Source of the DNA: Mrakia gelida | Lineage: Eukaryota > Basidiomycota > Tremellomycetes > Cystofilobasidiales > Mrakiaceae | DNA length: 64,000 nt | Assembly (NCBI GenBank): GCA_024345305.1 | Contig: BRON01000008.1 | Coordinates: 992,001-1,056,000, forward strand | Direction: 5' to 3' | Shown: piece by piece, positions 234 to 64,000 of the stretch | How positions within the stretch are numbered: the first letter of the stretch is position 1 | Layout of the letters: each line of letters begins with the position of its first letter | Notes under the pieces: model-generated | Databases searched by the model: none | Seen by the model: only the letters and a program-made list of their open reading frames with translations | Told to the model about the DNA's origin: nothing | Program-made: the position numbers and the translations under genes

Positions 234-3200
234 ATGTCCACAGGTCCAAACCCATTCGGCTTCGTCGCTTCAGCATCGACCTGGGAGCAGCAACCCATCG
301 TCGGACATCCCCTTCCTCCTTCAGCCCTCTCCTCCTCCTCCTCCTCTTTCCTCACTCAACTCGCTGAACCGCCTCTCGTCTGGCCCTTCCCGGACCCAAA
401 GATCGCTCTCTACTTCGATCCTCTCTCCCCCAAAGTTCAATCTCTCCAAAAGACCCTCGAGGTGAGTCTCTTGAGCCCTTGAAAGAAGGGAAGGAAGGAG
501 AAATGTTGAGCTCGCGCGATTTTCTGTCCTTCCTCCCCTTCCTCCCTCCTTTTGCTGACCTTTCGTCGTTCTTGCTCTCTTTCACAGAGGAAAGCCTTAT
601 CCCTAGGACTCTCTCCATCCTCCTAGCCTACCACCGACATCAATCAAGCCTCCCACGTCGTTCTCGACCCCGATTTCGTCAACGAAAACCTCCCTCTTCG
701 ATCCCAACCTTCCCCTCGACGCGTCGTGTCCGTTCAGTGGATCGTTGATTCGTTTCTCGAGGAGAAGGCTCTTCCGGAGGAGGAGTACGATCTCAGTACA
801 CCCATCGAGGAGCCTTTGGAGGAGGAGGACGTCGAGATCGTCCAAGCGGAGGTGGAAGCTCGTCCTCGAAGCGCCTTCGTCGCCAAAGCTCGTTCCCGCC
901 CCGCCCCCAACGCCTGGCGTAGAGAGGAGGAGGAGGACATGGTTCGCTTTCTCGCTTCAGGTTCGAAGAAGGATGGCGACCTGCTTGAGACCTGGCACTC
1001 TTATCAACAGGACGTGAGCTCAGGGTTTCTCTTTCTTTTCGTCTTGACTCAAATCTGACGCTTTTGCTTTCCCAGCATCCCTCTCGGACTTCAATCGCCT
1101 ACAGGCGGCAGCACTACATAAGGAAGAAGGTATCTTTCAATCCGAAGGTCGCTAAGCTCAGAGCTGCCGCCGACGGAGGACTCGTCGTCGCGGATGAGAA
1201 GGAGGAGGACGAGAACGAAGAGGATCCCATTGCGTGAGTTTATGTATCTTGCTGTGTACCCTTCAACCTGACCCTCTGACGAATTTTTGCCGTCGCTCTC
1301 TCCTTTCAGTCCCTCGCGTCTCGATACCAACTACGTGAACGGATACGCGACACCGAAAGGTTGGCTCGTCGAGGAGGAGGAAGAGATGGCTCGGTTTATC
1401 GCCTCGAACCCTCAGAGGAACGAACAAGGGATGATACTATGGGAGCAGTACCAGAAGACAGTGAGTAGCTTAGGACTGAGAAACAGCTTTGTGGATCGAG
1501 TGTGCGTCGTCGCCGCGTCTGACGGACGGGTTCGCTTCCTCCTTCCCACCCAGCATCCGTCGAGGAGTCGCGTGGCCTACCGGCACCATCACCTTTACGT
1601 TCGAATGGAACAGATCGAGGCTCGGGTCGCCTCCCTGATTGCAGCCGACGGCGGTCACCCCATCGTGTACGAGCATCCCGAGGTTGTCGAGACGCGTCCG
1701 GAGGAGATCAAGGAGGATGAAGTCCTTCCTGTTTCGTGAGTATTTCTGTTATCGCACACTCCCATCGGTTTGGGCCCGAGGTGACACCTTACTTTTGGCT
1801 CTGCTTGACTGCAGGGAAGCTCGTTCCCAGCTCAAACGTCAACGACCGACGACCCTCGATCCTTTCACTCCCATCCCCCTCCAATCCATTCGACGAGACC
1901 GGGGTAGACAGCGAGGTGTGGTTGGCGGTCATCGAGGCTGCTTCAGCTGTAGAAAGACTAGGACTTGTTCTCAGTGGTACCGGTACAACGAACAGGAGGA
2001 CCGATCGTACTGCGGGAGTTGTCGCACGATCTGTTCGTCTCGTCCTTCCTTTTCTTCTTTGATTCTTTTCTTCTTTGAGACGCGACGGGTACGCTGGTTG
2101 CTGACCTTTATCTTTCTTTCTTCTATTCCAAAGGGCACGAAGCGAACAGGAGACAACCTGGGACTGGCGACGACGCGCTAATCTCAAGGAAGAGACGATC
2201 TCTCGAGGAGGAGGAGGAACGAGCAGAACGCTCAGGATCGTCATCGTTGTCGGAGCTTTCGGATTCGGACGCTTCGGAAGTCGATATCGGAGGTCATGGT
2301 TCTCAGTGAGTTCTACTTTCGAACGCCTCTCATGAATGAGGATGAAAGAGCGACCAGCTGATTCTCTTTCTCGCCGGCGCGTCGACCTCAACAGTTCAAC
2401 CGTCGCTTCCTCCTCTTCACTCACTCTTTCCGGCCATCCATGGAACGAGAGAGAGAAGAGTGATCTTCTCTCGCTTCTGATCAATTCGAACGGCAAGACC
2501 GCGAGCAAAATTGCGCGATTGTTCCACGAGAAGGTGAGTCTCTGGCTTCTCTCCTTTTCAAAGTCGAGCGAGGTCGCGTCTGATCTCCTGCCATCGTTTT
2601 GCAGCACCCCCACCGGGGCTTCAGCTCTGTGATCACGCGTCTGTCGCGTGGACGAGCTCAGTACGCGAAGGAGGTCCTTGAAGCCACCCTTCCCGTCGCC
2701 TCCACCGCCAGAGCGCCAACCTGGACCTTGGAGGAGGAACAAGATCTGTACCAGATCCTCGCTCTACGGGAGGGAAGCAGGAACGACTCCTTTCGGGCAT
2801 TTACGGAGAAGGTAAGAGTCTATCTTGCTCCTCGAGGTCGACGAGCCTTGCTGAATTCGCGTTCGTCGTTGCCCTTTCCTCCCTTCGTTTGAGACATTCT
2901 AGCATCCTCGACGGACCTTGGTCGCTTGCAAAAGTTATTACGAAGATCACAAGAGTGTAATCTACCAAGAGGTTGAGACCATCAAGAGACAGATGGAGAA
3001 GGACGAGATCTCTTCGAAGAGGAGGAGGATCAGCCTTCCGACCAAACCTCCCAACGCCGTCGCGTCGTCTTCCAACTCCCATCGCCTCTCCCATCCCTCT
3101 TCTCGACCGACACCCTCACGGGATCGACACTCCCGCCCGGTCATACCATCTCCACTCGTCCGAGAAGCCCCTCCTCCCTCTGCGTCACCTCGAATCAACG

Positions 3201-3714
3201 CCGTCGCGTCTTCGTCTCGCTCCCCCTTCGACCAAACCAACCTCGCCCCCTCCTCTTCTGTTCCCTCCTCGCACCTCACAATCGAGCCCACCACCTCCCT
3301 TTCCTCTCGGTCTTCCTATCTTCAATCACCACTACCGCTCCCAAATCCCCCTAAACCTTCCACCACCCAAGTGGACCTACCATCGAACGACGACGACCTC
3401 GAACCCCCCTCCTTCCTCACCCTCGGCGCCAAACCTTCCACCTGCTCCCCAACCTCTCCCTTCTGCCATCCTGCGGCGAAGACGGCTCTCCAACGTACAA
3501 CACCCTTTACCTCGTCGGGAAGGATCGAACGAGGAGGGAGGAGTTGGCGTGCGACGTATGCGAAGCTCGAGCGGTGAAGACGAGGACGAAGGCTGAGCGC
3601 TTGGGGCTGGAAGGAGAGGAGAAGGAGATATGGGTGACGGAGGTACTGGTGGAAAAGGGGGTGAAGCAGAGGAGGGAGTGGGTTTTTGGGAGGGAGGGCG
3701 GGAGGGAAGAGTGA
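234..3714 (+). pseudogene. BRCT / Rap1-type Myb / GATA-like zinc finger protein, copy A (broken)
   Basis: The gene is read through introns from ATG 234. Domains in order: a BRCT-like region (exons at about 234-462 and 588-1013) ending in RRVVSVQWIVDSFLEE with the conserved W. Myb 1 (WRREEEEDMVRFLA, then after an intron HPSRTSIAYRR). Myb 2 (GWLVEEEEEMARFIA, then HPSRSRVAYRH). A GATA-like finger near 1930-2030 (CFSC, 20 residues, CGSC). Myb 3 (near 2440-2690) and Myb 4 (near 2710-2990). Last come a KRRR motif, a Ser/Pro linker and a CX2C..CX2C knuckle. An intron splits each Myb just before its HP[SR]RT helix. The BRCT plus Rap1-Myb pairing is that of telomere protein Rap1/TERF2IP; the function here is unknown. 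Two lesions are visible: an in-frame TAG at 624-626 where copy B has TAC, and a 1-nt loss near 3467-3471 in the C-terminal knuckle. Beyond that frameshift the frame is open to TGA 3712-3714. Either lesion could be an assembly error. Confidence 0.75.
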
Positions 3715-4282
3715 GGTTGGGGGTTTGGGTTGGGTCCGGCGGACGCGTCTCGTTTTGGTTTTGGTTTCGTTCTCGTTGCTTCGTTTCGATCGTTTTCCTT
3801 TTCTCAAGTTTCCCTATCATCTGTCTACGTATCTGCACCTGCATTGTAACGACCCTTCAAACGCCCTCTCTTGCTTCCTTCACTCCCTCCCTTTCCTCGT
3901 TCATGACCCTCCCGCGCCCGTTCCTTTCCTTCTCTCTCTCTCTCTCTCTCACTTTCCCCATCTTCGTCAACCACAGCACTCATCGCGTAGTAGAAATTTC
4001 GTCAGATCAAAAAAGAGCTAAATAATCTAGACAGAAGACGTGGGCGAGCCGAGCTAAAACAAGAGAAGGCTAGTGTAGACGAGAACGAGCTGAGAGCGAG
4101 AGAGCGGTACAGATCGTAGAGTTACGAGGGAAACGAGATGAGGTAGAGATGTATGTTGAGAGCAAGAGGGACATGATACGAGAAGGAAAGGACCAAACCC
4201 AAAAATAGAAGGCAGAAAGGAGAGAGACGGCATATCGTTCGTTCGTTCGCCCTGAACGAGACGAGAGGTTTGAGAAAGGAGG
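3715..4282. other. Convergent 3' region between copy A and the GPCR gene
   Basis: This is presumed overlapping 3' UTR of two convergent genes. It holds a (TC)10 microsatellite at 3931-3950. Short ORFs on both strands here show no family signature. I see no other structure. Confidence 0.5.
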
Positions 4283-7252
4283 TCATACGTCGAGATGAGG
4301 TTGAGGTTGATGAGGAGTGGGATTGGGATTGGAGTAGGACCCTCCTCCTGAGCGGACGGGGTGGGGGGTGGCGAAGTGGCCTTGGGAGGTCTGCGAGAAG
4401 AAACGAGACGAAGAAAGAAAAGGTCAGGAACGCGGCGGGACGAAGAGCGATGGGAAGGAAAGAGAGACTCACCTTCCGACGAACGTCTCGTTTGACTTTC
4501 CATTCGACTACTCCGTAGATGGCGAAGTCGACCTGGCGAAAGAAATAGGGGGACAAGACGTCAGCTCGAGGAGAAAGACGCGTCGAGCAGAGGGAGAGGG
4601 AGAGAGTTGCTCACGATTCCTTGAGAGAAGATCATCCACCTCGAGACGGCCGAGAGGACTGGGATGGGTGAAGGGACGGCGAAGTCGCAGATGATTCGGA
4701 CGAGGGAGACGGAGAAGAGAGCGACGTACTGCGAACGGAAGTCCAGGGTTGGGTCAGAACGCGTCTCATCTCGCTCGAACGAGTCGACCACCCCAAGAAA
4801 AACGAGCGAGAAGAGAATAACTCACTGCTAGCGGAAATAAGATCATCAACATGCTCGCCTTCCTATTCAGGTAAGCATTCATGCTCTCCTGGTTCTCCCA
4901 CGCTCCACTCCCACTCCCACTCCCTCCTCCTCGTCCCTCCGCTTCCATCTTCGCTCCCCACGAGCTTTCTCTTCCAGCATCCATGACCTTGTTCCCTCCG
5001 CTCCCTAACCAAGCTCCCGATGGTGTCGCAGGTCCCGTCTGGTCCAGGATCTCCTTCAGAGAAAGTCCGTTTCGACCTCTCCCTCTCGCTTTCGTTCTCG
5101 ACGGCGGCGAGAGGGAGTCGACTTCCGACTCAGTTGAGTCGTCGTCCTCTTCTGGGTCTCCTTCGGAGAGAGTGGTTGTGGATTCCGATTCGGCTTTGGG
5201 ATAGGGAGTGGAGGATTGACTGAGGGGGGTTCGTGAGGAGGCGGTTTGGGAGGACGGTGAGAGGGAGGAGGGTGAGAGCGGTGGATTTGAGTTCGGGTTC
5301 GTTGTTGTCGTTGTCGTTGGTAGTGGATATGGAGATGGAGATGGGAAGTAGTCTTGGGGAGTGTGGTTGAGATTTGGAGAGGTGGGAGTGGAGGGAGCGG
5401 TAGTTCGAACGATGGCGACGGGAGGGTAGAAAGGGCTGACGGCTGACTCTCGCCGCGATCCTCCTCGAGGTGATTCGTTCGAGAGAGGAGCGATGCTGAC
5501 GCGACGACCGGTAGGGAAGGGTGCGAGATCCGAGGAGCTGTTGAGATTGGGGATTTCGAGGTCGAGGCGTTCCCAGGGAGCGTACTTCTCGTCGAGACCT
5601 CCTCCTGGTCGGGTCTGCATGGGGATCCGATCGCTGTCAGCGCGAGCGAAGGTAGCTGTGGGGCGGTGAAGAGGGGAAGGGATGTCCTCTCCTGGGATGA
5701 CGAGTCCGAGCGTTCGCTTCCTGTTCCACCACTTGAAGTTGGCCTCGTTCGAAGAGGTTGTGCTGCGAATCCGGATCTCGTCGATTTGGGAGTTGTTGGG
5801 CGAGGAGATTCGATCCGGGCGACGAAGGAAGATGAAGAGGCGGGTGTAGAGAGCGACGACGACGATGAGAACGACACCTCTGGGGACAAGAGACTGAGGA
5901 AAGCGAGGAAGAAAGAGAAGTCAGGACCTCGTCGAACGATGGAACGGACACGATCGGGCGCGTCGACGGCAAACTCACGTAGATATCGCCGAAGTACTCT
6001 GGGCCCTTCGCTGGGTCGAAGTAGCAGAAGCCAGATCGGAAAGCGAAGCCTGAGCATATGAAAGAGGGTCAGCTTCGACTCGAAAAGCAAGGGAAGACGT
6101 GCAAGACTCACCTGTGATCCTCCAGGCGACTCCGGCGGCAATGAACGAGAGCGCCCACGTCAACGGCAGTATCAGGGCCCAGAACCGTTGGAGAAGTCTC
6201 GTCGCCGAGGAGAGAGGGTGGAGGAGGATGAGGTAGGTCGAAACAGCGAGGGCAATGGCGCTGAAGTACTCTGAAAGAGAACGAGGACGGAGAAACAACA
6301 AAGCGCGAGTTCAGTTCTCCTCGTTCTTCGAAAATAGAGAGAGGAAGAAGGAACTCACGACTCCAGAACGAAGAGAGCAGCATGAAGGCGGTGAAGTTGC
6401 AAACTTTAGATGAAGGACCATGGCCTGTTGCGAGGTAGTAGGAAGGGGAGATGACACCGAAGATTCTGGGGGAGGAACAAAGGAAGGAAGGGAGGGTCGA
6501 TCAGGACCGAGGCTTCCTCTGTCTGCTCTCTTTCGCCGAGCTAGCTCTCTACCTCTAAGAAAGTGACAAACTGACCCCATAACCCTGTAGAGCGAAGAAG
6601 ACGGGCAAAACGAGTCAGTCAGTTCCTCGTCTGGGAAGGAAAGCAAACTTGATCGAAGGGGAGGCGGAGAAAGTCGAGTCGAGCTCTTCGCCTCAGGTTG
6701 TTTGACCTTCCTCCTCGTTCCTTCTCTTCCTCTTTGAGCCGCCCCACCCCCCCATCTTGCCAGCCACCTTCTACACCTCCTCCCCTCATCGAAAGGAACG
6801 AGAAAGAAGACTCACAAGTCACCGAACACGAGGAAGGAGAGCAGCCTCGTCCTCACTGTCGACGCCCCGGTTTTGATCTCCCTAAAAGCTAGACCTCCCA
6901 GAATTCCTAGAGCTGTTGTTCCGTTCGTACGACCATTCCCCAAAGCCAAAGAGAGTCAGCTCAGTTCTCTATGGACGAGAGTTAAGCTCTTCTGATGGTG
7001 GAGGTCTCGTCGTCGGCTTGATATCTAAGCTCGAGACCCGGAAGGAGCAGAGGGTTTCGCCTAGCTCCTTCGAACCATCGACCTCTGCCCTGTCTTCCTT
7101 CTCTTCCTTTTGACGATAGAAGCGAACTCACCTCCTAGCACACTCAGAGAGAGGAGCGCAACGTCTACTACGGACCCTACCTGACCCATGGAAGTCTTTG
7201 ATACTCCTATGAGTCCTCGGGCGACGAGGGAGGAAGGGGAGGAGGAGCTCAT
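4283..7252 (-). CDS. Git3/Gpr1-type G protein-coupled receptor
   Basis: This is a seven-helix receptor of the fungal nutrient-sensing (glucose/amino acid) class that signals through Galpha to cAMP. The start is ATG 7252-7250. TM1 spans the first intron (VVDVALLSLSVLGA). TM2 follows a basic loop (RTRLLSFLVFGDL) and is joined through a 9-nt microexon. TM3 contains YFSAIALAVSTYLILLHP, and TM4 lies near WALILPLTWALSFIAAG. TM5 contains RGVVLIVVVALYTRLFIFL. A Ser/Pro/Thr-rich third loop of over 250 residues follows. Then comes a Git3_C-like block with LNRKASMLMILFPLAV, a TM6/TM7 pair and VDFAIYGVVEWKVKRD. All exon phases agree. The stop is TGA at 4285-4283 after a His/Pro tail. The ligand cannot be read from sequence. 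It lies downstream of, and on the same strand as, the tricalbin gene. Confidence 0.85.
6576..6584 (-). other. 9-nt coding microexon in the GPCR gene
   Basis: The 9 nt read GGTTATGGG on the minus strand, with acceptor CAG before and donor GTCAG after. Joining the flanking exons gives FGD-L-V-M-G-IFGVISP, which keeps TM2 in frame. Without it TM2 loses Val-Met-Gly and runs together as FGDLIFG. Confidence 0.75.
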
Positions 7253-7680
7253 TCGAGCGAGCACCGACTCGTTCTTCGGTCGGCCTTTTGAGCTGCTGGA
7301 GTAGTCGCTGCTTGACGAGCGAGGAGGGAGTTGGCGTAGGAAGGGGTGCTATGAGTTGGGGGGGGGGGGGGGGCGTCGAATCTGAACCCCAAAGAGGGAA
7401 GGAAGGAGAGTCGAGGGCGGTGATTGGAGAGTCGAAGTTGGGGGACTCTTGACTCGGGCTCGTCTCGTTCAAGCAAGGAAAAAAGGAGCATCATTAGAAG
7501 AAACACAGAAGAGGTAGACTATACTAGACGAAGGACTAAGGGAAGGAGAGCTAAAGACGAGGTCCAAGAGGAGGGTATACATAGAGAGAGAGGGAAGGAG
7601 GGGGACGAGACGCGAACGAAGAAAGGCAGGACCGGAAAGGGAAGAGAACAAGCAAGAGATTTGTCGCCCGGCAGAACGTT
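7253..7680. other. Intergenic: tricalbin 3' end and GPCR 5' leader
   Basis: No gene is recognised here. The main feature is a G16 homopolymer at 7358-7373 (C16 on the coding strand of the GPCR), about 106 bases upstream of the GPCR start. The rest is presumed 3' UTR, promoter and leader. Confidence 0.5.
7358..7373. repeat. G16 mononucleotide run
   Basis: Sixteen consecutive G on the plus strand lie in the promoter or leader of the GPCR gene. Such runs are length-unstable and hard to sequence, so the count may be imprecise. Confidence 0.9.
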
Positions 7681-10600
7681 CTACTCGTCCTTCGGATCGC
7701 TCTTGTCCCTCCTGGAAAAGAACAACGACGAGACAACGATCAATTTGATGTCAGTCTTCGTTCGATCTGGACACGTGAAAAGATGGTCGACATCGCGAGA
7801 AGAGGGAGTGCTCGCGTCGTCGTCGTGTTGAGACTGACCTGGTGAGCGAGAACTTGCTGGGAGACGAGATGGATTTCCTCGAGCTGATGGAAGCTTGTCG
7901 AGGGGAGATGGGAGTGTTGAGGTTGGTGACGGATCCATTGTGGGATGAGCCTGATCCTCCAGCTTTGAACTCGAGGCGAAGTCGAAGGAGGCCTTGGCCT
8001 TCTCGAAGCTGAGGAAAAACGATAAGAAACAAGCGAACGATCAGAATCGAACCTTCGCACGAGGAGAGACACGAGGTTGATGAAGAGCTGACCTCGACAG
8101 CGACGTCAGCAGCGGGCATGGCAGGAGAGATGTGTCGCCAGATCTGAGGGAAGAAAGTGGGACGGAGGAAGGGACGCGTGATCAGCGAAGGAGTTTCGAG
8201 ACGAAGAGACGAGATGGAATTCGACTCACTTCAACCTCAGCTGTACCGAGGACCTTGTCCTTTCCGAGAGTGTGATGTTCGATGACCGAAACCGAAGCAG
8301 CCGTGTCGTTGGGACTCAGCGAGAAGTGAAGAGCGGACTCGTCCCTGTAAGCGAAACGAGGCGGAACGTCAGGTCTCGGACGATGTCTCGAGCACTTCTG
8401 ATAGCGATGATCTCGAACTTACCATTCAGGAGCTTGAGACTTGGAGGAGTGTCCAGTCTTGCGAGTCTTTCCGGCGATCTGAAAGAGAGGGGAATAAAGG
8501 GAGGTTAGCTCGAGCGAGAACGCGTCGAGATCTCGCTCGTCGTCGACGACCAACACTCACCGAGATCTGAACATGAGCCTTAGCTTCCTCGGCCAAATCT
8601 TTCACTCCGAGAACCGTAATGGCCAACGATCCACCGAGAGGCGAGGTTCCGTTCCCTTTGGCGAAGTCGTTGGCGACGAGCGAACCGTCGACGGGACTCG
8701 AGGTCTGACCTGAAGGAGGATCCTCGACGGTCTCCTCGACCAGCTGAGATTCGAGAGACGAGGAGCGAGGTCAGCGTCAGCGTCAGAGAGAGAAGCACTG
8801 AAGGGCGCAGCGAAACGACTCACAACATCGTTCCCTCCCTTGTCCTTCTTCTTGACGAGACCGATCTTCCTTCCAGCGAACCCGCCAACCGAACCAACTC
8901 CGTGACCGACTCCGACGACTCCGTGGAAGACTCCCTTTCCGACTCCAGAAGCTACTCCGAGAGGGATTCCTCCGACTTGACCAGCAGCTCGACCGACGGT
9001 GGAGAACGTTGAAGTGTTCTGCGAGAAAGAAGGGACAGCGAAGGTCAACGCGAGTCTTTTCGACCGAAAGTTATGAAAGATCGAAGACGAACCTTCCTAG
9101 AACGAGCGATGATGGCAGGCTGGAAGACGAGTCGAACTCGAATGGATCCCTTCTCTCCAGTCTTGGTGTGATGCAGAGGAAGGACCTTCTCCATGGATTC
9201 GAACGGGACGAGGTCTGCGAGGTCGATCTTTGCTGTTCCGAGACTTTTGGCGGTCTCCACTGCATCGAAGAACGAAAGAGATGGAGGCATTCAGTACAAG
9301 GAAGAGCATCGAGAAGGAGAGGTAGGCTCGCTCACGTTGATTCCAGTCGAAGACCTCAACCTCGAAGTCAGCGGCGACTCGAGAGAGCACGTCGACCTCG
9401 AACTTCTCGTTCCAGACTGGAGCGAGCGTCTTCTTCTTGGCTTCGGACTTGAAGACCTTCTCGTCGTTGAGGTTGAAGACGGCGTAGGGATCGGACTGAA
9501 GAAGCGGAGAACGGAGCCGAGTCAGAGGTAGTTCGAGAAAGGGAAACGAAGAACGGACGCGACGACCTTTCCGCTTCGATCAGCTCCCTTGAGCTCGGTT
9601 CCGTCGAGGAGCTGGACGTGAAGACTTCCAGTGTCTGCAGTCAAAAAGCAAGAACGAACTCAGCGAACGAGGTCAAGGAAAGAAGAGAGGAGGAGCACAA
9701 GATCGCGACTCACTGTTGGCACTCTCTCGGGGAAGCAGAACGATGTCGACTGGGACGATACGGGACTCGATCTTGACCGTACTCTTCCTTCCCGAACCAT
9801 CCTTGGCGAGGAGGCTGAACTCTTTGGGACCAGAGAGGGACTGTTCGAGGAAGAGTCGGGTGTCGAGGGAGATTTCGGCGAAAATATCCTCCTTCTCGCT
9901 CTCGTCGTTCTCGTTCAAACGAAGCGTAATCCTGGAGAGATCGAGTTCTCCGATGAAGCTCTCTCCAACGGTATCCCAGGTAGCGTGCGTGCTTCCGGAC
10001 TTCTGAGTCCCGAACTGTGAAGAAAAGAGCAAGGAGTGGAGGTCAGCTTCTAGTCTTCGTGAGCGAGAACGTGACGCGTCGCTCCTCTGGTTTGAGAACT
10101 CACCGATGGCCAGTATCCATCCCCAGTCACGATCTCCAATCGACTCTTCTTCTCGAGGTGACCAGATACGATGTTGAATACGAGGATCCCCGATGCTGTT
10201 GAAGGAAAGAAGAGAAGGAGGGGATACGAAGTCAGAACAACTTCTCGACGACGAGACGAGGGACCTTCTCTTCGCAAACTCACACGTCGCGAGCAACTCC
10301 TCCTTGGTGAGAACGATTCCAGTATCGACGTCCTCGTTGGCTGAGTGTCGGCCAGTATCGGTCGAAGCCCTTCCGTTGGGAGTGCTGGTTCGACTGGTCG
10401 CGCTGGTAGGGCTGGCGAGAGAGCTGGGTCCGGCGGTGGAAGTTCCGTTGGTCTTGGGGATGGGAGTGTTGAGCGGAGTCGCGGTCGTAGGAGTCTGAGG
10501 TTGAGCGTCGGCCGCAGCGTTGACTGATTTGGTGATGGAATCCTCCTTCGCCTCGAACGAGACTCCTCCCTTGAGGCTAACGGCGGGGCAGAACTCGATG

Positions 10601-17509: not shown

Positions 17510-17740
17510 TTGGATGGTTCGTTTGAGATGAGATGTTGGTATTGGGGGAGAGGAAGAGCTTCGAGCGGTCGTTTCGACGCGTCCTCTTTTTCCCTCGCAC
17601 TCTCGGACTCTCCCTCCCTCCCTCGACGGTTCGACACAAGAAAACTCTCGATGACATAAAACCCAGTAGCACGTCTCCCTCCCTCCCTCCCTCCCTCCTC
17701 TCTCGATCTACCTTCCCATGACCACGCACGTAAAAGCGAA
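17510..17740. other. Convergent 3' region, methyltransferase / TFIIS
   Basis: A short spacer between two convergent genes, presumed 3' UTRs. It contains a (CTCC)n-like pyrimidine run near 17670-17700. Confidence 0.4.
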
Positions 17741-29395: not shown

Positions 29396-31657
29396 ATGGG
29401 TCTCACTCAGCAGCTAGCGGCTCTCCAAGCTGCCATGGACAACCTTCGAGTCGAGCACGCCAGGGAGGTGGCTTTCCTTCGCAAAGAGAACGACATCCTT
29501 CACGAGCGACTTCGTCAAGCTCAACTTCCCTCCTCCTCCTCCCCTCCCTCTTCCGGCTACCTCGCTCCCCACCTTCGATCTCAGCCCACACCTCGTCAGC
29601 CTCCTCGAAGAGATCTTCCCTGGGACGTTATCATCAACGTCTTCCAGCAATGCGAGGATCGTTCAACCCTCGCCGTGGCCTCAAGAGCTTCCTTCGACCT
29701 CCTGGAGTTGTGCTCGCCTCTTCTCTACGAGACCGTCGTCCTCGAGAGCGTCGAGGAGGTTGAGAAGCTGTTCTGTTCAAGCGTATTTGACCCTATCCCT
29801 CTGCTTCTTCGCCCGCACTTCGTAACTTGACGTCCTCATCTCCCTTCTTGTTGCAGAACACGTTTCGCACGACGGCTCGACTCCTCCCCTTCCTCTCCCT
29901 CAAACAAATCCACGCCCTTCACTTCCACATCTCCAGATTCGACGAGCAACCTCACTTCTCTCACGACCGTATACTTCCATCACACTACTTCCCTACCAGT
30001 CAACCACCTCCCCGTCCCGCCATCCCCTCCCTGCACCTCTCCTTCCTCGTCCCCGAACCCGTTGGACGACGCTCCTCAGCCCAAGTTGGCCTCTCTCACC
30101 TCTTCGACCTCCTCTCCCCCTCCCAAGTCACCTTCTCCTACATCGGAACCTACGACCACCCCGATGGACACTACGATACGTACTCCTGGATGCCCGTCGC
30201 CGTTGGCGTGATGTCGGCGAGGTCGATGGAGAGACGATGGACTTCCCTCAACAAGATCGTCCTCGACGGGTGCATTCCGTTCGTCAACGGAGGCACGTTC
30301 GTCTTCTCTCCCGAAGAGGACGTGGCTTTTTGGAGGGTGTCGGAGAGAGCCGACTTCGTCGTCGAGTTCATGATGTCGAAGAAGAGGGAGGGAAACAGGG
30401 ATGAGCACGAGAGCTTGGTCTGGCAGCTCGGGCACTTTGGGATCTTGGACGTTGAAGGGTTGAAGAAGGTCATTGTGAGGGTACCTGGGGAGAAGGAAAA
30501 GGGGTGGCTAGAGGGTGGGAGGGCAACGGATGAGGAATGGAGGCGTGTCGAGATCGTGGTCGACGCGTCGAAGGCCGAAGCGAGAGAGACTCCTCGACTG
30601 AGTTTCTCCCGCGAGGTTCTGAAGCTCGTGGCAGGCCGGATGAAGACCCGGAGCCTCGCTGTTGCTTGCCGAGTCTCGATGGGTTGGCTCGATGTGATGG
30701 GTCCTGAGCTTTACGCGACGGTCGACCTCAAGACGTCGAAGAAGGTGCAGCAGCTCTTCTGCTCACGAATGAGTCCAACCGATTCCGTTCCTTGCTTCAA
30801 ACGATATGTAGTATCTAGAACGCTGAGATCCTCTCTTTTGACCATCACAGCGTCCGTCAAGCAGCCGAATCCTCCCCTTCCTCTCCCTCGATCAAATCTC
30901 GACCCTCCGTCTCTTCGTCCCCCCCGTCCCCGACTACCTCTCCTCCCTCTCAACATCCCGGTTCCTCAGATCCCCCGAAAACTTCCCTCTCAACCTCCAA
31001 ATCATCTACAACCTCCCCGGTCGCCCCAACCACCCCTTCCACGACGATGACTCCTTCCCCATCTTCGCCTCAGCCCACGAAGCTGTCCTCTCCCTCTGCA
31101 ACCCCACCCACCTCTCCTTCTCCTACGTCAGACCCTACTCGAAAGGCGACACCTGGATGCCTCTCGATATTGGAATCCCTATCGGACGAACTCTTCGCTC
31201 CTCCTTCACCAACGTCAAGACGATCCTCCTCGACCGCTGCATCCCCTTCGACCTCGAGGACGAGATGATCTTCTTCGTCTTTCAAGCATCGGAGAAGATC
31301 GCAGGCGCGGTCGTCACGTTCAACCTCACGAGCTCGAAGACGACGAGGACCGAAAGAGTGACGATCGTGGATGATCTCACTCGACACGCCATCATGGACA
31401 TGAAGGAGGTGAAAAAGGTGGTCGTTCGCGTCAAGGGATGGAAGGAGATCGAGCAGGTGGAGGAAGGGATCAGGAAGCTGGACAAGAAGTACTTGAAGGG
31501 GGTTCCGGTGGAGGTAGTCTCGTTGGAGGGTCCGAAGGAGGTTGGAGGAGGAGGTGGAGGGAGAGGAAGAGGGAACAAGAGTCGAAGGGCGAGAGGAGGT
31601 CGAGGAGGACGAGGTGGTGGGAGGACCGAAGTCGAGTGTAACGCGTTGCGGTTCTGA
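29396..31657 (+). CDS. F-box-like protein with internal duplication and RGG tail
   Basis: The start is ATG 29396. A coiled-coil N-terminus (TQQLAALQAAMDNLRVEHAR to about residue 45) precedes an F-box-like block (LPWDVIINVFQQCEDRSTLA) and a first ligand-type domain. Near 30600 the same arrangement restarts: LSFSREVLKLVAGRMKTRS, LDVMGPELYATVDL, VQQLFCS, LPFLSLDQISTLRLF and LDRCIPF align with LPWDVIINVFQQCEDRS, LLELCSPLLYETVVL, VEKLFCS, LPFLSLKQIHALHF and LDGCIPF of the first half. So the gene is a tandem duplication. Each half has an intron at the same codon. The second lacks a GT donor there: CGA is followed by ATGAGT at 30769, with acceptor CAG ending at 30850. The C-terminus is Gly/Arg-rich (RGG-type), TGA at 31655-31657. 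F-box proteins usually recruit SCF substrates, but the F-box match is weak. Confidence 0.6.
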
Positions 31658-48751: not shown

Positions 48752-51700
48752 TCACTTCCCCTTCCCTCCCTCCCTCCCAAAAACCCACTCCTTCCTCTGC
48801 TTTACGCCCTTCTCCACCAAAACTCCCATGATCCAGAACAACGTCTCCTCTCCCTCCAAGCCCAACCGCTCAGCCTTCTTTCTCGTCTTCACCTCTCGCG
48901 CTTCACACACGTCGCACGCTAGCTCGTCCCTTCTCGATCCATCCTTCCCGACGAGGTGGAGGGTGTTGTACGTAGGAGAGCCGTCTTCACCGCAGCGGTA
49001 GCAGACGGGGGAGGTGGGCGAGCAGGTGGAGGGTCTGGAGCCGAGGGCGAGGAAGGAGAGGGGTTCGAGATGGTCGTCGTCGTCTTCCGATTGAGAGGAG
49101 GGTTGTGGAGGAGGGGGTGGTGGAAGGGCACGGAGAGGTTTAGCGGAGAGTGACTGGGAGGAGGTGGACTCGGTGGAGTTGATGGTAGAGTGGGAGAAGG
49201 AAAGCGAAGAAGAGGGGAGGAGGGTGTCTTGGTTGAAGGAGGGCCGAGACGACGACGCGACGGCGTTGACTGGTGATGCGGGAGACGGAGGAAGAGCTTT
49301 GGGAGCAGGAGCGAGTTGGATCGATGGAGACGATTGGTGGGAGGGTCTGGAGCCTGAGTATATCGTCCGAGAAGAAGGGCGGGAGAGGCGATGGGAGCGA
49401 GACAACGAGGCGACCGCGCTGGTGGAGGGCAGCGAGGTGGGGGAAGGACCGTCTCTGTTAGGAGGGGGTCCGAAGGATGATTGGAATGGGTTGGAAGCGG
49501 AGGGGTTCGATGAGGAGTAGATGGTTCGAGGAAGAGGTAGGATGAGCCGATGGGAGTTTGATGACGACGCGAGGGCGTTGAGGGGTTTGGCCGGCAGACT
49601 GATCCTCCTCCGCTTCAACGAACGAAACGGAGAGTCGTGAGGGACGAATTCCTTCCTTTCCGATCGACTCCAGTTGCCGGAAGAAGCTGATGACGAACGA
49701 GACGCGACGGCGTCGAGGAGAGACGTTCGAGAGGCGACCTTCCTGCTCTTCTTCGGTTGGGGATGTCGAGAGAGCTGCTGGCTTTTGAAAGGTTTCGTCG
49801 AGGAGACAAGAGCGAACGGGAACTTGCGAGAGGACGCGCTGATCTCGGATGGGTTCTGGACGTTGCTGGAGTCGAAGCTGTCGTCCTCCTTCCTCCCGGC
49901 GTTCGATCCTCTTCCTCCCCTGATGACCTCGATGTCTTGACGGATCCGGACTTCGTGGGAGTCGAAGTAACTTTGGCAAGCGGAGAGAGTCCTCCAAGGG
50001 TACTATAATGAGAGGAGAAGGAGGACAACGAAGGCGGGGTCAGCGGCGCTTGAGGAATCGACTCGAGAGCAGCAAGGAAGCATCGGTACCTTTTCCATGA
50101 ACACGCGAAAAACCTCATTCCTGCTTCCTTCCTGACCAGCTAGGATCTGACACAGATCTTGTTCCTCCTTCCGGGTCCAGGAAGCTCCCGCATAGGAGGC
50201 GACGCGAAGTCAATTCGCGGTGGCTCGACGCTGCGGACGAGCTTCCCTGGATCCGCGCAAAGCGAGGAGGGAAGTATCAGCGCGAGTTGGAGGATGGGGG
50301 TGTGTGAGAACAGAACGACTCACGAGAAAGAAAGGACTTCCCCCTCCTCGATCTCCTCCGGACGCGTCTCGACGACCTCGGGATGCTCGTAGACAATTGG
50401 GCGACCGTTGTTGGCTGATACCAGGGAGGAGATGTGAGCCTCGATCTGGTCCTTTCGAACGTAGAGGTAATGGGTCTGGTATGCTGAGCGACTCCTCGAC
50501 GGATGCTGGGCCGGAAGGAGGAAAGGGAACTCATCCGTCAGACGCGGCGACGACGACGCTCACTCGATCGCTAAAGCTGCTTCTCAGTCCTAAGCTACTC
50601 ACCGTCCTCTGATAATGCTCCCATATCGTTCCGTGCGCGTTCCTCTGAGGGTTCGAAGCGATAAAACGAGCCATCTCTTCCTCCTCCTTGACGAGCCAAC
50701 CTTTCGGCGTTGCGTATCCGTTCACGTAGTCGGTATCAGGACGATAGCGACTGAAAGGCAAGAGGGATGACGAGAAATTGTCAAAAAGTCAAGAGGTACA
50801 CCTAGAGATATCCAGACTCACGCTTCAGAGTCGAAGTCCCCTTCTTCCTCTCCCCCATCATCCTCGACGACGAGTCCTCCGGCGGCGGTAGCTCTGAGTT
50901 TAGCGACCTGAGAATTGAAATAGGCCTTCTTCCTGAAGAAGTGGTGCTGCCTGTAGGCGAGCGAGGTTCGAGAGGGATGCTGGGAGAGCAAAAGCGTCGG
51001 ATCAGTGACGAGCGACGCGAGGGAAGGAACGAATGAGAACGAGCTCACGTCCTGTTGATAAGAGTGCCAGGTCTCGAGCAGGTCGCCCTCCTTCTTCGAA
51101 CCTGAAGCAAGAAAGCGAGCCATCTCCTCCTCCTCCTCTTTACGCCAGGTGTTGGGGCGGAGGCGGGAACGGGCTTTGGCGACGAAGGCGCTTCGAGGAC
51201 GAACTTCCTCCTCCTCCTCGACGACCTCGACCTCCTCCTCCTCCAACGGATCCTCGATGGGTGTACTGAGATCGTAATCGTCCTCCGGAAGAGCTTCTTC
51301 CTCGAGAAACGAGTCGACCAGCCACTGAACGGAGACGACGCGTCGAGGGAGAGGCTGGGATCGAAGGGTGAAGTTGTCATTGATGAATTCGGGATCCAGG
51401 ACGACGTGGGAGGCTCGGATGATGTCGGTGGTAGAGTAGGAGGATGGAGAGAGTCCAAGGGATAGAGCTTTCCTCTGGAAACGAGGATAACAAACGAGAA
51501 AGGAAAGAGAACAGATCAGCAAAGCAGGAGCGAAAGAGTCGCGAGCTCAACATTCCCTTCCCTCCTTCCCGTCTTGAAACAGCTCGAGAAGACTGACCTC
51601 GAGAGTGATTTGGACGGATCGAACTTTGGGGGAGAAGGAATCGAAGTAGAATACGATCTTTGGGTCCGAAAAGGGCCAGACGGGAGGAGGTTGGGCGAGT

Positions 51701-51822: not shown

Positions 51823-52267
51823 CCTAGAGTGAGCTGAGAGGTGAGGTAGGGGTCCGAAGGTCGAAACCTGAAGACGCTTCGGAGGGCGAGAAGCTGAGCG
51901 TTGGGCGTGAAACGAGAGCACCTGGCTTCCTCGCCTCGAGAGTTGCCTGTTTGAGCACGCAGCAGTTTCCCCGTCGTCTTTGTAAGAAATGAAGATTTGC
52001 TGAGCTCAAGGGAGAGTTTGGAATCAATCTCGAGACAAAGATGGGGAAGCGCGAGGTTTCGCTTTTCCAAGATCTGGAGGGAGGGAAGGAGGACGAGCGA
52101 CGAAGAAACGAGGAAGGTTAGACGCGTCGCGAAGAACGATGGCGCTCGCGATCCCGATACAGAGCTATCCTCCTAGGTCGGTGGTAATCTACACATATGA
52201 TACAAACACGTGCTAAGTGCCCTGTCGTATGCAGTCGTCCATGCAAAAGGAAATCCACGCCTTCGCT
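51823..52267. promoter_or_regulatory. Copy B promoter / aminotransferase 3' region
   Basis: 445 bp. It holds the leader of copy B and the 3' UTR of the aminotransferase. I see no distinct element. Confidence 0.35.
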
Positions 52268-54656: not shown

Positions 54657-55389
54657 CTTGGATGAAGCGAAGAGAGTGGAGTTGGGTGGGGTGGGTGAAG
54701 AGGGTTGGGGGAGAGGATGGAGGTCAGGAGGGAAGAAACGAGAGAGAGGGAGGAACAGATGAAGGCTATCGGGCCAGAGCGATAACCCCTAGCCTCTCCG
54801 CTCAGGTCGGATCTCGACAGCTTTCGATGAAGGGGAGGGAGCTATTGAGCATCTGAATCCGTACTGACCGGAATGGATTGGGAAAGATCTGAGGGATTGA
54901 AAGAAGCGCCGTTGGGAGCGTCGGGGAGGAGATGGTGGGCTGAACGGAGTCGACGCGTCGAATCGAGCTCGAGCGGGACTTGATTTGGAAGATTTTTTTC
55001 GTTAAATCTTGTGTACAGGTGGATTTGCCTTGAAAGACTGATTTCAAAGGCTGAGCTCGTTCAAGCTGATTTTGAGGCCGAGGGGAAGTGCGAGAAGAGG
55101 AGAGGGAAGGTCGCGTCGAACTCGTCGCGCTGAGCTCAATTCTGCTTCGATTTTCTCAATTCTTTCGGAGTGAAATTTCTACAAGACAGGGCTGCATGTA
55201 TTTTTCTGCCTCCAAACTCGCTCGGATAAATCTTCAAACAGGAACGTGCGAGGGAGCTATTTCCGCTTGTTCGATTCGCTCTCCTCGCCTTCTCCACAAC
55301 TCTGCCTCCTCCTTCGTCTGAGCTCCCAACTGCTTCCTTGCCTCCTCTCCTCCCCTCGATGAACCGTCGTTCGTGGATCCTCCGTCAGC
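54657..55389. promoter_or_regulatory. Divergent promoter region, aminotransferase / CorA transporter
   Basis: 733 bp without a gene. A locally AT-rich patch (TTTTTTTCGTTAAATCTTGTG, near 54990-55013) stands out against the GC-rich surroundings. No defined site is recognised. Confidence 0.4.
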
Positions 55390-58300: not shown

Positions 58301-59133
58301 TCTTCCTCCACCTCCACCCGTCCCAAATTCACGCTCGAGCCCAACGACGACGACTCAAGGACCCTCACACGAGGTTCCGAACTCGGCACTCGTTCGATCG
58401 GGCGAAGATGCTCAAGAGGATGACGGATACGAGGAGGTTGATCACGGGGCTGAGTAGGCTGTTGATCCCCAAGAGTGAGGTGGTGGGCAGGTTGAGGAAG
58501 AGAGCGGAGGAGGTTTCGGGGAGGAGGTCGGGGTGGCAGCACGGTGGGGTTGGAGGAGAGATGGTCACCTACATCGGTGATATTCAGGGTGAGTAGTCCC
58601 TCTTCCAGTCGTTCGAGGAAGAAGGCGAGAGCTCGATCTGACGTCTCTTCGTTTCGTCTTCCTTCGTCGCGTCCGAACAGATCACATCCTCTCGATGCAG
58701 AGTACCCTCCTCCATTACGAACAAATCCTCTCTCAAGCTCAACCGGCCTACGTCTCCCAGCTGCGTGTTTCCCTCGCCGTCACTCGAGGAATCACCGACA
58801 AGGCCATCCTCTCGCTCTCGGTCGTCTCGATTGGAATCCTGCCGATGCAGTTCATCTCTGGTCAGTCCCACCTCTTCTTTCCCATCCCTCCGCTCCCTCT
58901 TTCGCCTCCACTAACTCTTCGCTTGTTGTTTTTATTCAGGTCTCTTCTCGATGAACGTCAACCGACCTCAGAACGGAGACGAGGACCATCGAATCGGCCT
59001 TCCACTCAACGTCTTCGGAATCATCGTCTGCGTCGTCGCTCTCGTTGCAGCTGGAGTTGTCGCCGTTGTTCGATACTGGAAGAGGAAGGCTTGGGTCGCT
59101 AGGAAGGGGCTGGAGGGGAGAGCTATGTCCTGA
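55390..59133 (+). CDS. CorA-family Mg2+ transporter of the Alr/Mnr2 type
   Basis: This is a magnesium channel of plasma membrane or vacuole. The start is ATG 55390. A low-complexity N-terminus of about 450 residues precedes the cytosolic domain: FFVEGP-like linker, WWLDVHCPGWEDMRAIGEVS, LFALHPLTLEDILHQDPREK, LETFDRLGYYLISFRAID, VNVYLVVFRDGIISFHFDDI and MDSIVDSFFPLIDYVEFEAD. A Ser-rich insert is followed by TDTRRLITGLSRLLIPKSEV and the long stalk helix (DHILSMQSTLLHYEQILSQA). TM1 is ILSLSVVSIGILPMQFISG. The signature loop reads GLFSMNVNRP, so the usual GMN is SMN. TM2 is PLNVFGIIVCVVALVAAGVV. It ends LEGRAMS, TGA 59131-59133; about 1,130 residues. Confidence 0.9.
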
Positions 59134-59813
59134 GTGGTTGTGTTCGTCTTCGTTTTCTCTTCTCGCTCGCTCGCGACGCGTCTCGTTTCGTTTCGTTTTG
59201 CTCCTTCTCCTTTCTCCCTCTCTCCTTTTCTCTTGCATCTTCTCTCCAACTCGTGCTCTTTCTCACTCTCATCTTCCTTTCCATGTTGTACTTGCATCTT
59301 TTCTACTTAACGACTACCCACTTCGCATAGACTTCGCGCACGCTTCGCTTCACCTCGCAAAATCTAGATACTCCCCGTGCTCTTGCCGCTTATCATATCT
59401 CCCTTCGTAATCTACTCTGGGGTCACGGAGAGCCCTTAGACCTCGAGGTTGCGTCCCAGTCTTCTCAGAACCTGGTGTTCATCTGGGAGGACAGTAGTAG
59501 TAGTGAAGCGAACCTCGAAGCTCGAAAGGAACCTCTGTTTCGCTCTCTCCTCCCCTTTCGCCCTCGTTCTCCTCTGCTCTCATGCACCAACTTCGCCACC
59601 ATCTCCTCAAGCTTACTTATCCGACTCTCTGATCTTACCTTCCTCTTCTGGAGGAAAAAACAGTCGCTGGGGTCCTTAGATGCAGATGCACCGAGCTGCC
59701 GAAAGCGATCTAAGCTCAGATCAGCCTTATCTCGCCCTCCTTCTGCCGTCCTTCTTGTTCGCCTCCCACGTTCTCTTCTTTGCCACCACCCACATCAACC
59801 TGCCTAATCCAAG
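59134..59813 (+). other. CorA 3' region and upstream region of copy C
   Basis: 680 bp. In copies A and B a BRCT domain would precede Myb 1; here I can find no BRCT-like exon in any plus-strand frame (no VVS..W motif). The stretch is taken as UTR and promoter. Confidence 0.45.
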
Positions 59814-62800
59814 ATGGAACCACGGATATCACCTTCAACCGAAGTACCATCTCAGGAACGCTCTCAAACTCCTCCCCTTCCTCCCTCCCCTCTTCAGCCC
59901 TCGCCCGTCCTCCTCCACTCGTCGACGGCAGCGAAACCTTCTCTCTCGTCCCACTCCTTCCCCTTCTCCTCCACCAACTGGCATCTCGAGGATCCCCTTT
60001 CGTTCTTACGTCCTAAGTCTCAAACGGAGGTTGCCGTGGAGATGAGCTTTGAAGCGCTGGAGGAGCCGGATGTAGATAGGTCGACTTCGTGAGCTCGATC
60101 TTCCCCTCCAGTACTCTCTTTCACTCTCCTCTTCTGACTCGACCCATACTCATCCAACTTCGCTCTCCTTAATCCTCTCGCAGTCTGGATGTTTCTCGCT
60201 CGTCGTCGTCGTCCTCGTTCTCGAACGGATCCTGGCGAGAAGAGGAGGAAGAGGATCTGGCTCACTTCCTGGCTGCTTCGCTCGAGTCCGACGACGATCC
60301 TTCAGCTCGAGACGACGACGGACTGGATGCGTTCGATCGCTACGCTCGGAAGGATGTGAGTCCATCTTAGTTCGATGGAATAGACCTCGAAGGAAGCGAA
60401 GACGAGAGGGCTGACCTGCCGCGTTCCTCGACCTTCGTTCCCGCGTCGCAGTCAACAACTCGGACCGCCGACGACTACAGGAGTCGCTTCCAAGACAGGA
60501 GAGACTCATTCTTCATCCCTAGGATCGTGGCGCTACATCATCAACCTGGTCTGGGGAATGGGAAGGAGAGGGAGGTCGTTGCGAGGTGAGTCGACGTCGG
60601 GGGCGACGCGTCAGCGGAGCGAACATCGTCCCTGATTCTCCTTCTTTCTATGTTGCCCGTCTTTCAGGATGGAGTCGGAATCTACCTCGTCGGTTCTAGT
60701 TGAGGCTCATCTGACTGCAGTAGATCGTCTCGAACCCAACGGCAAGGGGTAAGACAGGAGTTCTCGTCGCGTCGGCGCTGCTTCCAACCTTCGCTGACTC
60801 CCTCTCTTCTGTGTCTTTTTTCTCGACGTTGAAGGTCTAAATGGAATTCTCGAGAGAACTCAGATCTCCAAGCTTGCTTCGAGAAATACATTCCTCCGAT
60901 CAACATCCTCTTCGAACGCTTCGAGCCGTGATTCAACATCGCACTAACAAGTCCAGTTCTTTCGTCGTTCAGCAACCGTCGACCGTTCCCTCTCAACTTT
61001 GGACGACGGCTGAAGAAGATGACCTCGTCCGTCTTCTCGCTCAACTCAATGGCTCTGGACTGGTGAGGACCTCCGGTGAAGTCACACGGTTGTTCTCGGA
61101 ACAGGTGTGTTGCTGCTTTCTTCTCTCGCCAAAACTCTTCTCGCCAAAACTCGCGCGCTAATTCCACTTCGTCCTCTTTCCGTCCTTCTTCGAAGCATCC
61201 CACGCGCTTCATCAACAGCATACGAACATACTACTACAGGCACAAGCCACGGCTGGATCAGCGAGCCAAACTGCTGTACATCAGCGAGGTGCGACCTTCT
61301 TCAACAGGCGCGTCGTCCTCCGGCTCTCTTCCCCTCCCGTTCGTCAACAGCTCTTCCAAAGCTCTTCTTTCGGGTATCCTACCTGAAGTACAGCTGAAAC
61401 GCTAACCTTTGTCTGTCTCTCTGCCTCAGCACACGAACGGATCCCTTCGTCTCGATCATCTTCGCCGAGGAGGAGGCAGACGCGACGCGTCAACGCGAGC
61501 GCTCGCCGTCCCTTCCTGATCTGGAGTTCGCTTCACCTCACGGATCCACCTCGTCTTCTCTAACATCACTTTCGGATCACGACTCGGAGCCAGCGTCGTC
61601 AGCGCGGTCGGAATCAGGATTGGAGCTGAAGGGCAGTTTGAGTGAAGACGACGAAACGCTCAAGAGCTGCTCGAACTGCAGGACGCGTAGAACCTCGATG
61701 TGGAGGAGGGACAGCTTGGGTGGTCCTCTTTGTAACGTGAGTCGATTCCGCTACCTTCGTAGGAGGTTCGTCCGAGTGAGGCTGACTCGTCCTCCCTCTC
61801 TGGCACTTCGATCTTCAGGCCTGCGCTCTCTTCCTCGTTGGTCTCAGCTTGCCATCATTTCACCCTCCCATCTTTCCGTTCACTCAGACCTTCTCCTCTT
61901 CATGTTTCGCCTATCAGAAATTGCACAAAGTCCCTCGACCTCTCTCCCTCAAGTCGGACACGATCAGGAAGCGGTTCGCATTTTCCTGCTTTCGGTTCGT
62001 CCCTCCTTCGACCACTGACCGTCTTCCCACTTTCCTCGCATGACTCAGAAACCGCAAGAAGCCGAATAAGGTCTCTCGCCCCTCGAAACACAGCGTTATC
62101 AGTCGACCCTCAGCTCAATCGGCAGATCCAACGTCGTCGTCGTCGTCCTCGCTTTCATTCCCTGAGGCTTGTGCTCTTCTCGCTGTTCGTGCCAACTCAT
62201 AGCTCGAGCGCAGCCTTCTTGACCGAGCTCTGATGTGAGGCTTCATTTAATCTCTTACAGAAGCTTCGTGGATTCCCTCAGCCACTCTCGCAAGAGTCGG
62301 GAAGCAACTCGGAGGTGAGCTTCAAAATCTCGCTGTCCGTCAGCTTCTCGCTCCTTGCTCGACATCTGACTTCTCCACGCTTTCTCATCCTCTTGCCAGA
62401 CATCACGAACATCCAATCGAGCCTGAATCAACCTCCAATCCTCTCGCGTCAGCTGGGAAACGTCGAAGACTCGAGTCGGAAAAGGAGTCGCGTCCGCCTC
62501 CTCCTCCTCCTCCTCGTCCCATCGCTTCCGGATCGTCCACCCACCCTCAACTTCCTCTCCCCTTCTCTCCCCCTTCGGAGCCCTTCTCTTCCTCATCAAT
62601 CCGCCTGCCACCATCCGGCAACTCTTCTACCTTCAGCAAACCTCCCACCTTCGAACCCTCCATCCTCCAAGTCCAACTCGTCGTCGATCCCTCCCCGTCG
62701 ACCCCTCCGTCCTTCCGTTCCTGCTGGCTCTGCGAGTTCAGGAACGAGGACGTCATTCTCTTCAGGAGACTGGAGCTTGCCGAGCGAGGGCTGTCGGATC

Positions 62801-62991
62801 CTCAGGAGGTTTCGAGATTTGCGAGGTGGGTGTGCGAGACGGATTGCCGGTGGCTGGACGAGGATGTTGATGAGCGCCGGCGAAAGGGGATGGCGGCGGA
62901 ACGATTTGAAGAGCCAGAATACGTTATTTGGTATACTAGTGGATTGAAGGATAGGGAGCTGGAGAAGAGGAGGCTGATGGGTGAGGATTGA
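59814..62991 (+). CDS. Rap1-type Myb / GATA zinc finger protein, copy C (exon joins uncertain)
   Basis: Diverged relative of A and B. The start ATG 59814 opens a 92-residue Ser/Pro-rich exon. Myb 1: GSWREEEEEDLAHFLA, then STTRTADDYRSRF. A second Myb is present only in part (HPLRTLRAVIQH); its first helix, WNSRENSDLQACFEKY, lies in another frame just upstream. A third Myb follows: WTTAEEDDLVRLLA, then HPTRFINSIRTYYYR. A canonical GATA finger spans 61668-62068: CSNC, 17 residues including TSMWRR, CNAC across an intron, then LKLHKVPRPLSLKSDTIRKR. The tail has KRRR, a Pro run, and a knuckle CWLC..CETDC, then KDRELEKRRLM and TGA 62989-62991. Joins near 60749-60865, 61290-61435 and after 62068 are not uniquely determined. 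The GATA frame alone could stop at TAG 62200-62202. It could be a working transcription factor or a decaying copy. Confidence 0.65.
61668..62068 (+). other. Canonical GATA zinc finger of copy C (three exons)
   Basis: CX2C-X17-CX2C with TSMWRR between the pairs. The second Cys pair is split: CN, then an intron of about 80 nt with CTGAC branch, then AC. After a second intron come KLHKVPRPLSLKSDTIRKR and, after a third, NRKKPNK. This matches the DNA-binding tail of fungal nitrogen and light GATA factors residue by residue in its conserved positions. Confidence 0.85.
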
Positions 62992-63230
62992 AGAAGAGGA
63001 GGGTCGAGATCGAGACGCGTCGCAATTTGTTTTTCTTCTCTCTTTCGATTTCGCTTCATGCATTTCATCTTGCGCAGCTCGTTCGAACATCCTCCGTATT
63101 AGATCTATCCGCTCTTGCGCCTCTCCTCCCTTCTCTCTCTCGCCTTGTCGGACTCCTCTTCGAAAGACCGAACTATTCAGAGCAGCGGCATCGATCCGTC
63201 CTCTCCACGCCCACCTCGCTCCAATGAAAC
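62992..63230. other. Convergent spacer between copies C and D
   Basis: 239 bp between the stop codons of two convergent family members. No feature is seen. Confidence 0.5.
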
Positions 63231-64000
63231 CTACACAACTCCAACGAACCTCCTCCTCTCCTCCCTCCCAAGCTCCATCAACCTCTCCGTCGCCCAAGCC
63301 ATCCTCTCAAGCTCGCCCATCCCCTCCTCGTCTCCCTCCTCCAGCATCCTCAAACTCCCTTCGAACCAATCCAAGCACGAACTGCACGCCTGCTTCCCTC
63401 CAGAGATGCGAACGAACACGTTCATGTCCAGAAGGCTCCTCTCTGCAAGATCGAGGATCGAGTAGAAGGGAGCGAGATCCTCCCAACAGAAGAAGCAGGA
63501 GAGGGAGGAGGAGCCGAGGGAGGATCGATCCGCTGCGAGGTCGAGGTTGCGAGATTTTGAGAGGGAGGAGGAGAGGTAGGGGTTTGAGGGAACGATGTGG
63601 GAGAGGTTGGCCGTGAGATCCAGAGGATAGTATCGGTGAGGTGCCGAGGAGGAAGGTAGAGTGGGAAGAGGAGCCTGTCGATGGAAAGGGTTGGAGCTTG
63701 ACATCGACGCGACCGGATCCTCGAATCGGACCTTCTTCTTCGTCGACGAGGACGAGTATGGCGAGGTTTGAGGGAGTGGTCGTTTCTGAGAGGATGTAGT
63801 GGCGTGCCGTGGAAGGTTCGAGGTGGTGGCGAGGGTGCTGGTTGAAGCGACGGGCGAGGGAGGTCCGAAGGACGGAGAAGTCGTGAAGGAAGAAGAAGAG
63901 CGACTCGACTTCGGTTTTGACCTCGACCTCGACTTCGACTTCGACTTCGACGGCTGAGCCTGTTGAAGCTCTTCGACTGCCGCGTCGTACTGAGCCTTGT
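63231..64000 (-). CDS. Copy D of the Rap1-Myb/GATA family, C-terminal part (cut by window end)
   Basis: A single frame is open from the window edge to TAG 63233-63231. It begins KAQYDAAVEELQQAQ, which resembles the helix after the last Myb in A (QYAKEVLEATL) and B. Then comes a Lys/Ser/Arg repeat coded by tandem TCGAAG/TCGAGG units (about 63910-63955), KKKVRFEDPV, a Ser-rich linker and a knuckle CFFC, about 30 residues, CSSC. A helical tail (MAWATERLMELGREERRR) follows. The knuckle and tail place it in the family of A-C. The N-terminal domains lie outside the window. Confidence 0.7.
   Translation of the reverse strand, partial: KAQYDAAVEELQQAQPSKSKSKSRSRSKPKSSRSSSSFTTSPSFGPPSPVASTSTLATTSNLPRHATTSSQKRPLPQTSPYSSSSTKKKVRFEDPVASMSSSNPFHRQAPLPTLPSSSAPHRYYPLDLTANLSHIVPSNPYLSSSLSKSRNLDLAADRSSLGSSSLSCFFCWEDLAPFYSILDLAERSLLDMNVFVRISGGKQACSSCLDWFEGSLRMLEEGDEEGMGELERMAWATERLMELGREERRRFVGVV

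Follow-up and report, generated by a model that had tools for sequence, protein, structure and literature searches.

The DNA analyzed here is a stretch of 64,000 nucleotides (hereafter the window) from the basidiomycete Mrakia gelida, positions 992,001–1,056,000 of the 1,792,598-base contig BRON01000008.1 (C8) in assembly GCA_024345305.1. It contains three copies (A, B, and C) and the 3′ part of a fourth copy (D) of a gene family whose fullest domain order is BRCT–Myb–Myb–GATA–Myb–Myb–linker–Cys4 (Table 1). No description of such a BRCT-Myb-GATA-Cys4 family was found in the literature searched. The family is real and far larger than four members. It is Rap1-like, but neither Rap1 nor subtelomeric.

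The splice models of the four copies were built by hand, and all exon models are predictions. Copy A is the only copy in the window with the full domain order. Its linker is acidic and Ser-rich. The up to four Mybs expected for it from an earlier reading of the bare sequence (the sequence-only reading) are confirmed by the splice model and domain profiles as Myb1–Myb4. Copy A is disabled by an in-frame TAG in the BRCT domain (624–626) and a 1-nt frameshift near 3470. Copy B lacks GATA and Myb3, and has an in-frame TGA at 50212–50210. As that reading had proposed for 234–3714 (+) and 51822–48752 (−), A and B are homologous multi-exon genes, with 72–87% identity in blocks of 79–463 nt. No BRCT was detected in copy C with domain profiles; its mid-gene exon joins are uncertain. 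Copy D, which had been taken to start at 63231, in fact runs on the minus strand and ends there, while its start lies 1.9 kb beyond the window. It has no GATA, and its model shows no disablement. The domain order claimed to be common to all four copies is thus wrong for B, C, and D. The predicted C-terminal knuckle is present in all four as the Cys4 domain, although it is frameshifted in A, and in C three residues separate the cysteines of the second pair.

Table 1. Coordinates of the family copies and of the conversion-like tract (window positions).
Feature	Position	Strand	Content	Basis
Copy A	234–3720	+	10 predicted exons; BRCT, Myb1, Myb2, GATA, Myb3, Myb4, linker, Cys4	splice model, domain profiles
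Copy A, predicted exons 1–5	234–461, 588–1013, 1076–1233, 1310–1460, 1554–1735	+		
Copy A, predicted exons 6–10	1815–2032, 2134–2305, 2395–2533, 2605–2811, 2903–3720	+		
Tract shared by A and g965	2611–3407	+	797 nt, intron included, 100% identical to g965 (C8:962.5–965.9 kb)	
Copy B	51822–48752	−	7 predicted exons; BRCT, Myb1, Myb2, Myb4-like, linker, Cys4	splice model, domain profiles
Copy C	59814–62991	+	Mybs, GATA finger (61668–61736), Cys4 (62671–62973)	
Copy D	65939–63231 (C8:1057939–1055231); inside the window, 63231–64000	−	8 predicted exons; BRCT, three Mybs, Cys4	splice model, profiles

The source genome consists of 34.86 Mb in 25 contigs, and C8 corresponds to 5.1% of it. Four genome searches with the C-terminal domain, pooled at E ≤ 1e-3, revealed at least 39 copies on C8, one on contig C1, and one marginal fragment of 52 residues on C7; the family had been described as four-membered, as neither this size nor the near-restriction to one chromosome is visible within the window. 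Two further matches on C8 are weaker (E = 0.013 and 0.053). A single search at E ≤ 1 gave at least 43 matches, 42 of them on C8 (copy A twice) and one on C1. The copy counts are lower bounds, as the search scores the best candidates only. The N-terminal half of copy B matches along C8, three times in one C1 gene, and once each on C6 and C3. The C6 and C3 matches are BRCT relatives, with no Myb found within the 3.5–4 kb examined. On C8, the copies are dispersed on both strands from ~0.53 to 1.66 Mb of the 1.79-Mb contig, roughly one in every 30 kb. A control search with a multi-copy open reading frame (ORF) of the window that is unrelated to the family gave at least 34 matches (E ≤ 0.001) on 14 contigs, of which 6 are on C8.

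Two copies on C8 deserve separate mention. Just outside the window, C8:989561–991794 (7561–9794 of locus L008) is a further member with BRCT, GATA, Myb, and Cys4. It is divergent from copy A and separated from it by at most ~440 bp. At C8:784437–785696 (L053/L056), two consecutive Cys4 domains lie in one 566-aa frame.

The window is 992 kb and 736 kb away from the two ends of C8. No TTAGGG was seen in the terminal 1.5 kb of either end, so the chromosome may extend beyond the contig. TTAGGG/CCCTAA is not enriched around the copies, with 15 occurrences in 189 kb of C8 and 2 in 30 kb elsewhere. The suggestion of a subtelomeric family is not upheld.

An intron-aware protein-to-DNA alignment script produced models for 31 stretches of C8 and the C1 copy. 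An intact member is L030 (= g1260) at C8:1,260,000–1,263,345, predicted to have nine exons and an unbroken 878-aa frame in the order BRCT, Myb, Myb, GATA-like finger, Myb, linker, Cys4. Undisturbed models with a BRCT were obtained for L030/g1260, g1198, and D; the script model of g1198 skips one Myb detected by domain profiles. A stop called in g1108 was rejected because it falls on a splice site, which is a modelling error, and several frameshifts called in divergent copies may likewise be modelling errors. Over the examined loci, domain profiles find BRCT, at least two Mybs, and Cys4 together in 12, and GATA in 11. Most members profiled also trained the profiles; the BRCTs of A and g530 are not among the training sequences, nor are the GATAs of g530 and g1527a. 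In the four fullest loci (g965, A, g1198, and g1260), the GATA finger follows Myb2 and precedes Myb3. Its neighbours vary in the remaining loci, g1190 carries two GATAs, and the C1 member has none.

In A, B, D, and L030, every one of the 13 Myb repeats is interrupted by a phase-0 intron at one shared site, immediately ahead of the HP-type helix. This had been noticed from the sequence, and the common intron site supports the duplication of Mybs as a two-exon module.

The domain identities are supported to different degrees. GATA is solid in copy C, which matches PF00320 above the cut-off (9e-9). The family profile finds GATA-3 at 2.2e-8, and 5 of 9 single fingers match at E ≤ 0.1 (best 1.1e-10), which agrees with the original assignment. 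The BRCT assignment holds at the level of a profile: one made from 12 family BRCTs finds TOPBP1 at 1.3e-4 and BRCA1 at 2.3e-3, while single sequences score below the cut-off. For the assignment of the Mybs to the Rap1 type the picture is mixed: L030 passes the Pfam Myb_Rap1 model (2.3e-6; 28.4 bits against a cut-off of 27.1), but in the other members scanned the match is below the cut-off or absent. Among single Myb1/Myb2 units, 5 of 18 match Myb_Rap1 at E ≤ 0.1. The C1 member matches Myb_DNA-binding (PF00249) above the cut-off at 3.4e-7, and a profile of Myb3/4 finds c-Myb at 1.4e-4.

Neither Pfam (best 0.016, in one of seven members) nor, by sequence, the set of solved structures (best 0.017) offers a convincing match to the Cys4 domain. 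Its structure, predicted from 27 aligned copies (27 of 30 loci, three with stops or partial sequences being left out), has a mean predicted local distance difference test score (pLDDT) of 89 and a predicted template modelling score (pTM) of 0.82. The predicted fold comprises a CxxC, a beta hairpin, a second CxxC at the start of a helix, and a long helix. Structure searches with this model gave weak neighbours only. Judging from these comparisons, the C-terminal Cys4 is a domain of no recognised family. RCT, the C-terminal domain of Rap1, was not matched in any of seven family C-termini compared with Pfam.

RCT (PF11626, Rap1_C) is found at one place in the genome, on contig C2, with an E-value of 0.127 genome-wide and 0.0026 on the exon piece. 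The C2 gene contains BRCT (0.02), half of a Myb_Rap1 (0.013), and RCT (0.0026) in that order, each scoring below its cut-off. Because the three occur together and in order, this gene is likely to be Rap1. The family has no RCT, and so it is not classed as Rap1. Although absent from the training set, the C2 BRCT matches the profile of the family BRCTs at 7e-4. In the Myb of the C2 gene, too, there is an intron of phase 0; it lies 11 codons upstream of the family's site, so that the intron position is not common to the C2 gene and the family.

All 16 chosen paralog pairs show a ratio of nonsynonymous to synonymous substitution rates (dN/dS) below 1, 0.31–0.51 over all aligned codons and 0.15–0.51 in the C-terminal domain (last ~110 codons); these are simple pairwise estimates, and some pairs include disabled or partial copies. 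Copies A and g965, whose start codons are 26 kb apart on opposite strands, are ~77% identical in their 5′ parts. The identical tract of 797 nt, compared with ~77% in the 5′ part, indicates recent gene conversion or exchange. In the tree, the C1 copy and the 944-kb copy of C8 fall together (support 93/94); the deep branching is not settled, with 14 of 24 inner branches open. Based on this grouping, the C1 copy looks like an export from C8 rather than an ancestor.

Searches for full-length homologues found none, and those with the Rap1 candidate as a control likewise found none. A profile of the unspliced last exons matches two ORFs in public metagenomes (E = 6.3e-35 and 1.0e-19), which compare with the family copies examined at best with 71% identity over 83 residues and 38% over 118 residues. 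These two matches suggest that the C-terminal domain is probably not unique to this genome.

What could these proteins do? On balance, and by a narrow margin over even chances, we favour the reading that they act in the nucleus as regulators that bind DNA sequence-specifically and have a Rap1-like BRCT-Myb-Myb scaffold, a function deduced from their domains. The two to four Mybs and the GATA finger would bind bipartite DNA sites, and the BRCT and Cys4 domains would recruit partners or dimerise. Members would differ in their targets and might act on transcription or local chromatin, not on telomere capping. The copies may have multiplied by DNA-level duplication with their introns kept; their near-restriction to a single chromosome suggests that this duplication took place inside it. 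Purifying selection would then shape them, along with gene conversion and loss. The related idea of regulators that recruited Rap1 parts may still hold in view of L030, where Myb_Rap1 is above the cut-off, as it is in none of the other members scanned.

The family shares with Rap1/TERF2IP an N-terminal BRCT followed, in the same order, by Mybs, which in L030 match the Rap1 type. It differs from the BRCT-Myb-(Myb)-RCT architecture in that no RCT is found, in the extra GATA finger, the extra Mybs, the new C-terminal Cys4, and the ~40 copies, and in that the same genome holds a separate Rap1 candidate. The finger resembles those of GATA-type regulators in its C-X2-C ... C-X2-C pattern with a basic tail, but here it forms part of a protein with BRCT and Mybs, and many members lack it. 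The proteins would function like Rap1-type or GATA-type regulators, as far as their domains tell, and are a clean member of neither group. Tay1/TRF proteins are also fungal proteins with Myb motifs, tandem in Tay1; the texts of PMC7952879 and PMC7744550 do not mention BRCT, a distinction drawn from descriptions.

Several results weigh against the regulator reading. The family Myb profiles miss the C2 Myb at E ≤ 0.01, and a comparison of the family Myb with it gives a probability of only 16.7%. The Myb3/4 profile reaches RAP1 chains at 0.5–0.67 only. Among solved structures, Rap1 chains are absent from the matches of the Myb1/2 profile; protein A chains rank first (0.0021), and the best chain of Myb type is a TTAGGG binding factor (E = 0.39). 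The predicted Myb structure is of low confidence (pLDDT 51). Furthermore, among 26 C8 copies those further apart are no less identical (Spearman −0.06; 565 of 2000 permutations gave a value this low), which gives no support for short-range spreading. Finally, in-frame stops in the models of 5 of 12 full-length loci (A, B, g1121, g1190, and g1214) indicate that much of the family may be dead.

These stops, together with the frameshift in A and the domains missing in B, C, D, and others, could be read as signs of a mostly decaying family, in which a few active genes are accompanied by many pseudogenes kept by chance and gene conversion. We regard this as rather doubtful, since dN/dS is below 1 in every pair, three BRCT-containing models are undisturbed, and only 3 of 43 matches of the C-terminal search have an internal stop. 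It is unlikely that the proteins serve at telomeres or subtelomeres, as extra Rap1 paralogs binding chromosome ends or interstitial telomere repeats. The combination of BRCT with a Rap1-type Myb and the match of the C2 BRCT to the family profile speak for such a role, whereas RCT is seen once, weakly, on C2 and not in the family, the genes are chromosome-internal, and telomere repeats are not enriched around them. A precedent in its favour is Hansenula polymorpha, where, according to PMC6510891, one of two Rap1 paralogs (HpRap1A/B) recognises telomeric DNA, with the other found in association with subtelomeres. That is a division of roles between two paralogs, while here dozens of copies with another architecture lie on one chromosome.

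Selfish or mobile-element-linked proteins, whose spread and not host regulation explains the copy number, might account for the many dispersed copies in both orientations on one chromosome and for their rapid divergence. This is very improbable: the models of A, B, D, and L030 retain 6–9 introns, homology between A and g965 begins at the start codon and ends shortly before the stop, and that of three further pairs extends at most ~140 bp beyond the gene. None of ten window ORFs scanned matches a transposon family, in scans that included no targeted transposon search. It can also be speculated, as a quite improbable extension, that the family is a chromosome-specific system of about forty Rap1-like BRCT-Myb-GATA proteins encoded on, all but restricted to, and perhaps acting on one chromosome, with Cys4 as a new recruitment domain. 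By analogy with KRAB zinc fingers, locus-specific repressors engaged in an arms race, such proteins might equally improbably be repressors of that kind, or chromosome-wide chromatin organisers.

Large DNA-binding families are usually spread over the genome, or gather in tandem or near telomeres. What is new in the regulator family favoured here is an undescribed architecture that has reached ~40 copies scattered over an internal part of one chromosome, in a genome that also has a separate Rap1 candidate. The family makes it possible to test directly how a Rap1 scaffold can diversify into many members, and why a gene family stays on one chromosome.

Other features were observed in the course of the analysis. 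The palindrome GACGCGTC occurs at 30 places in the window, against 2 expected from shuffles, and is also frequent on other contigs (9 in 30 kb examined). It contains ACGCGT, which we take to be the MCB cell-cycle box. At 29827–31498 of the window, two adjoining paralogous stretches belong to a family of many dispersed copies, and the first ORF matches nothing in Pfam. C1:1–1000 (L069) resembles what we take to be a segment of a laboratory cloning vector and is presumably assembly contamination. Contig C16 carries two matches to STE3-type pheromone receptors 38 kb apart (465013–466017 and 503471–504508), a pairing that might represent a homothallic arrangement.

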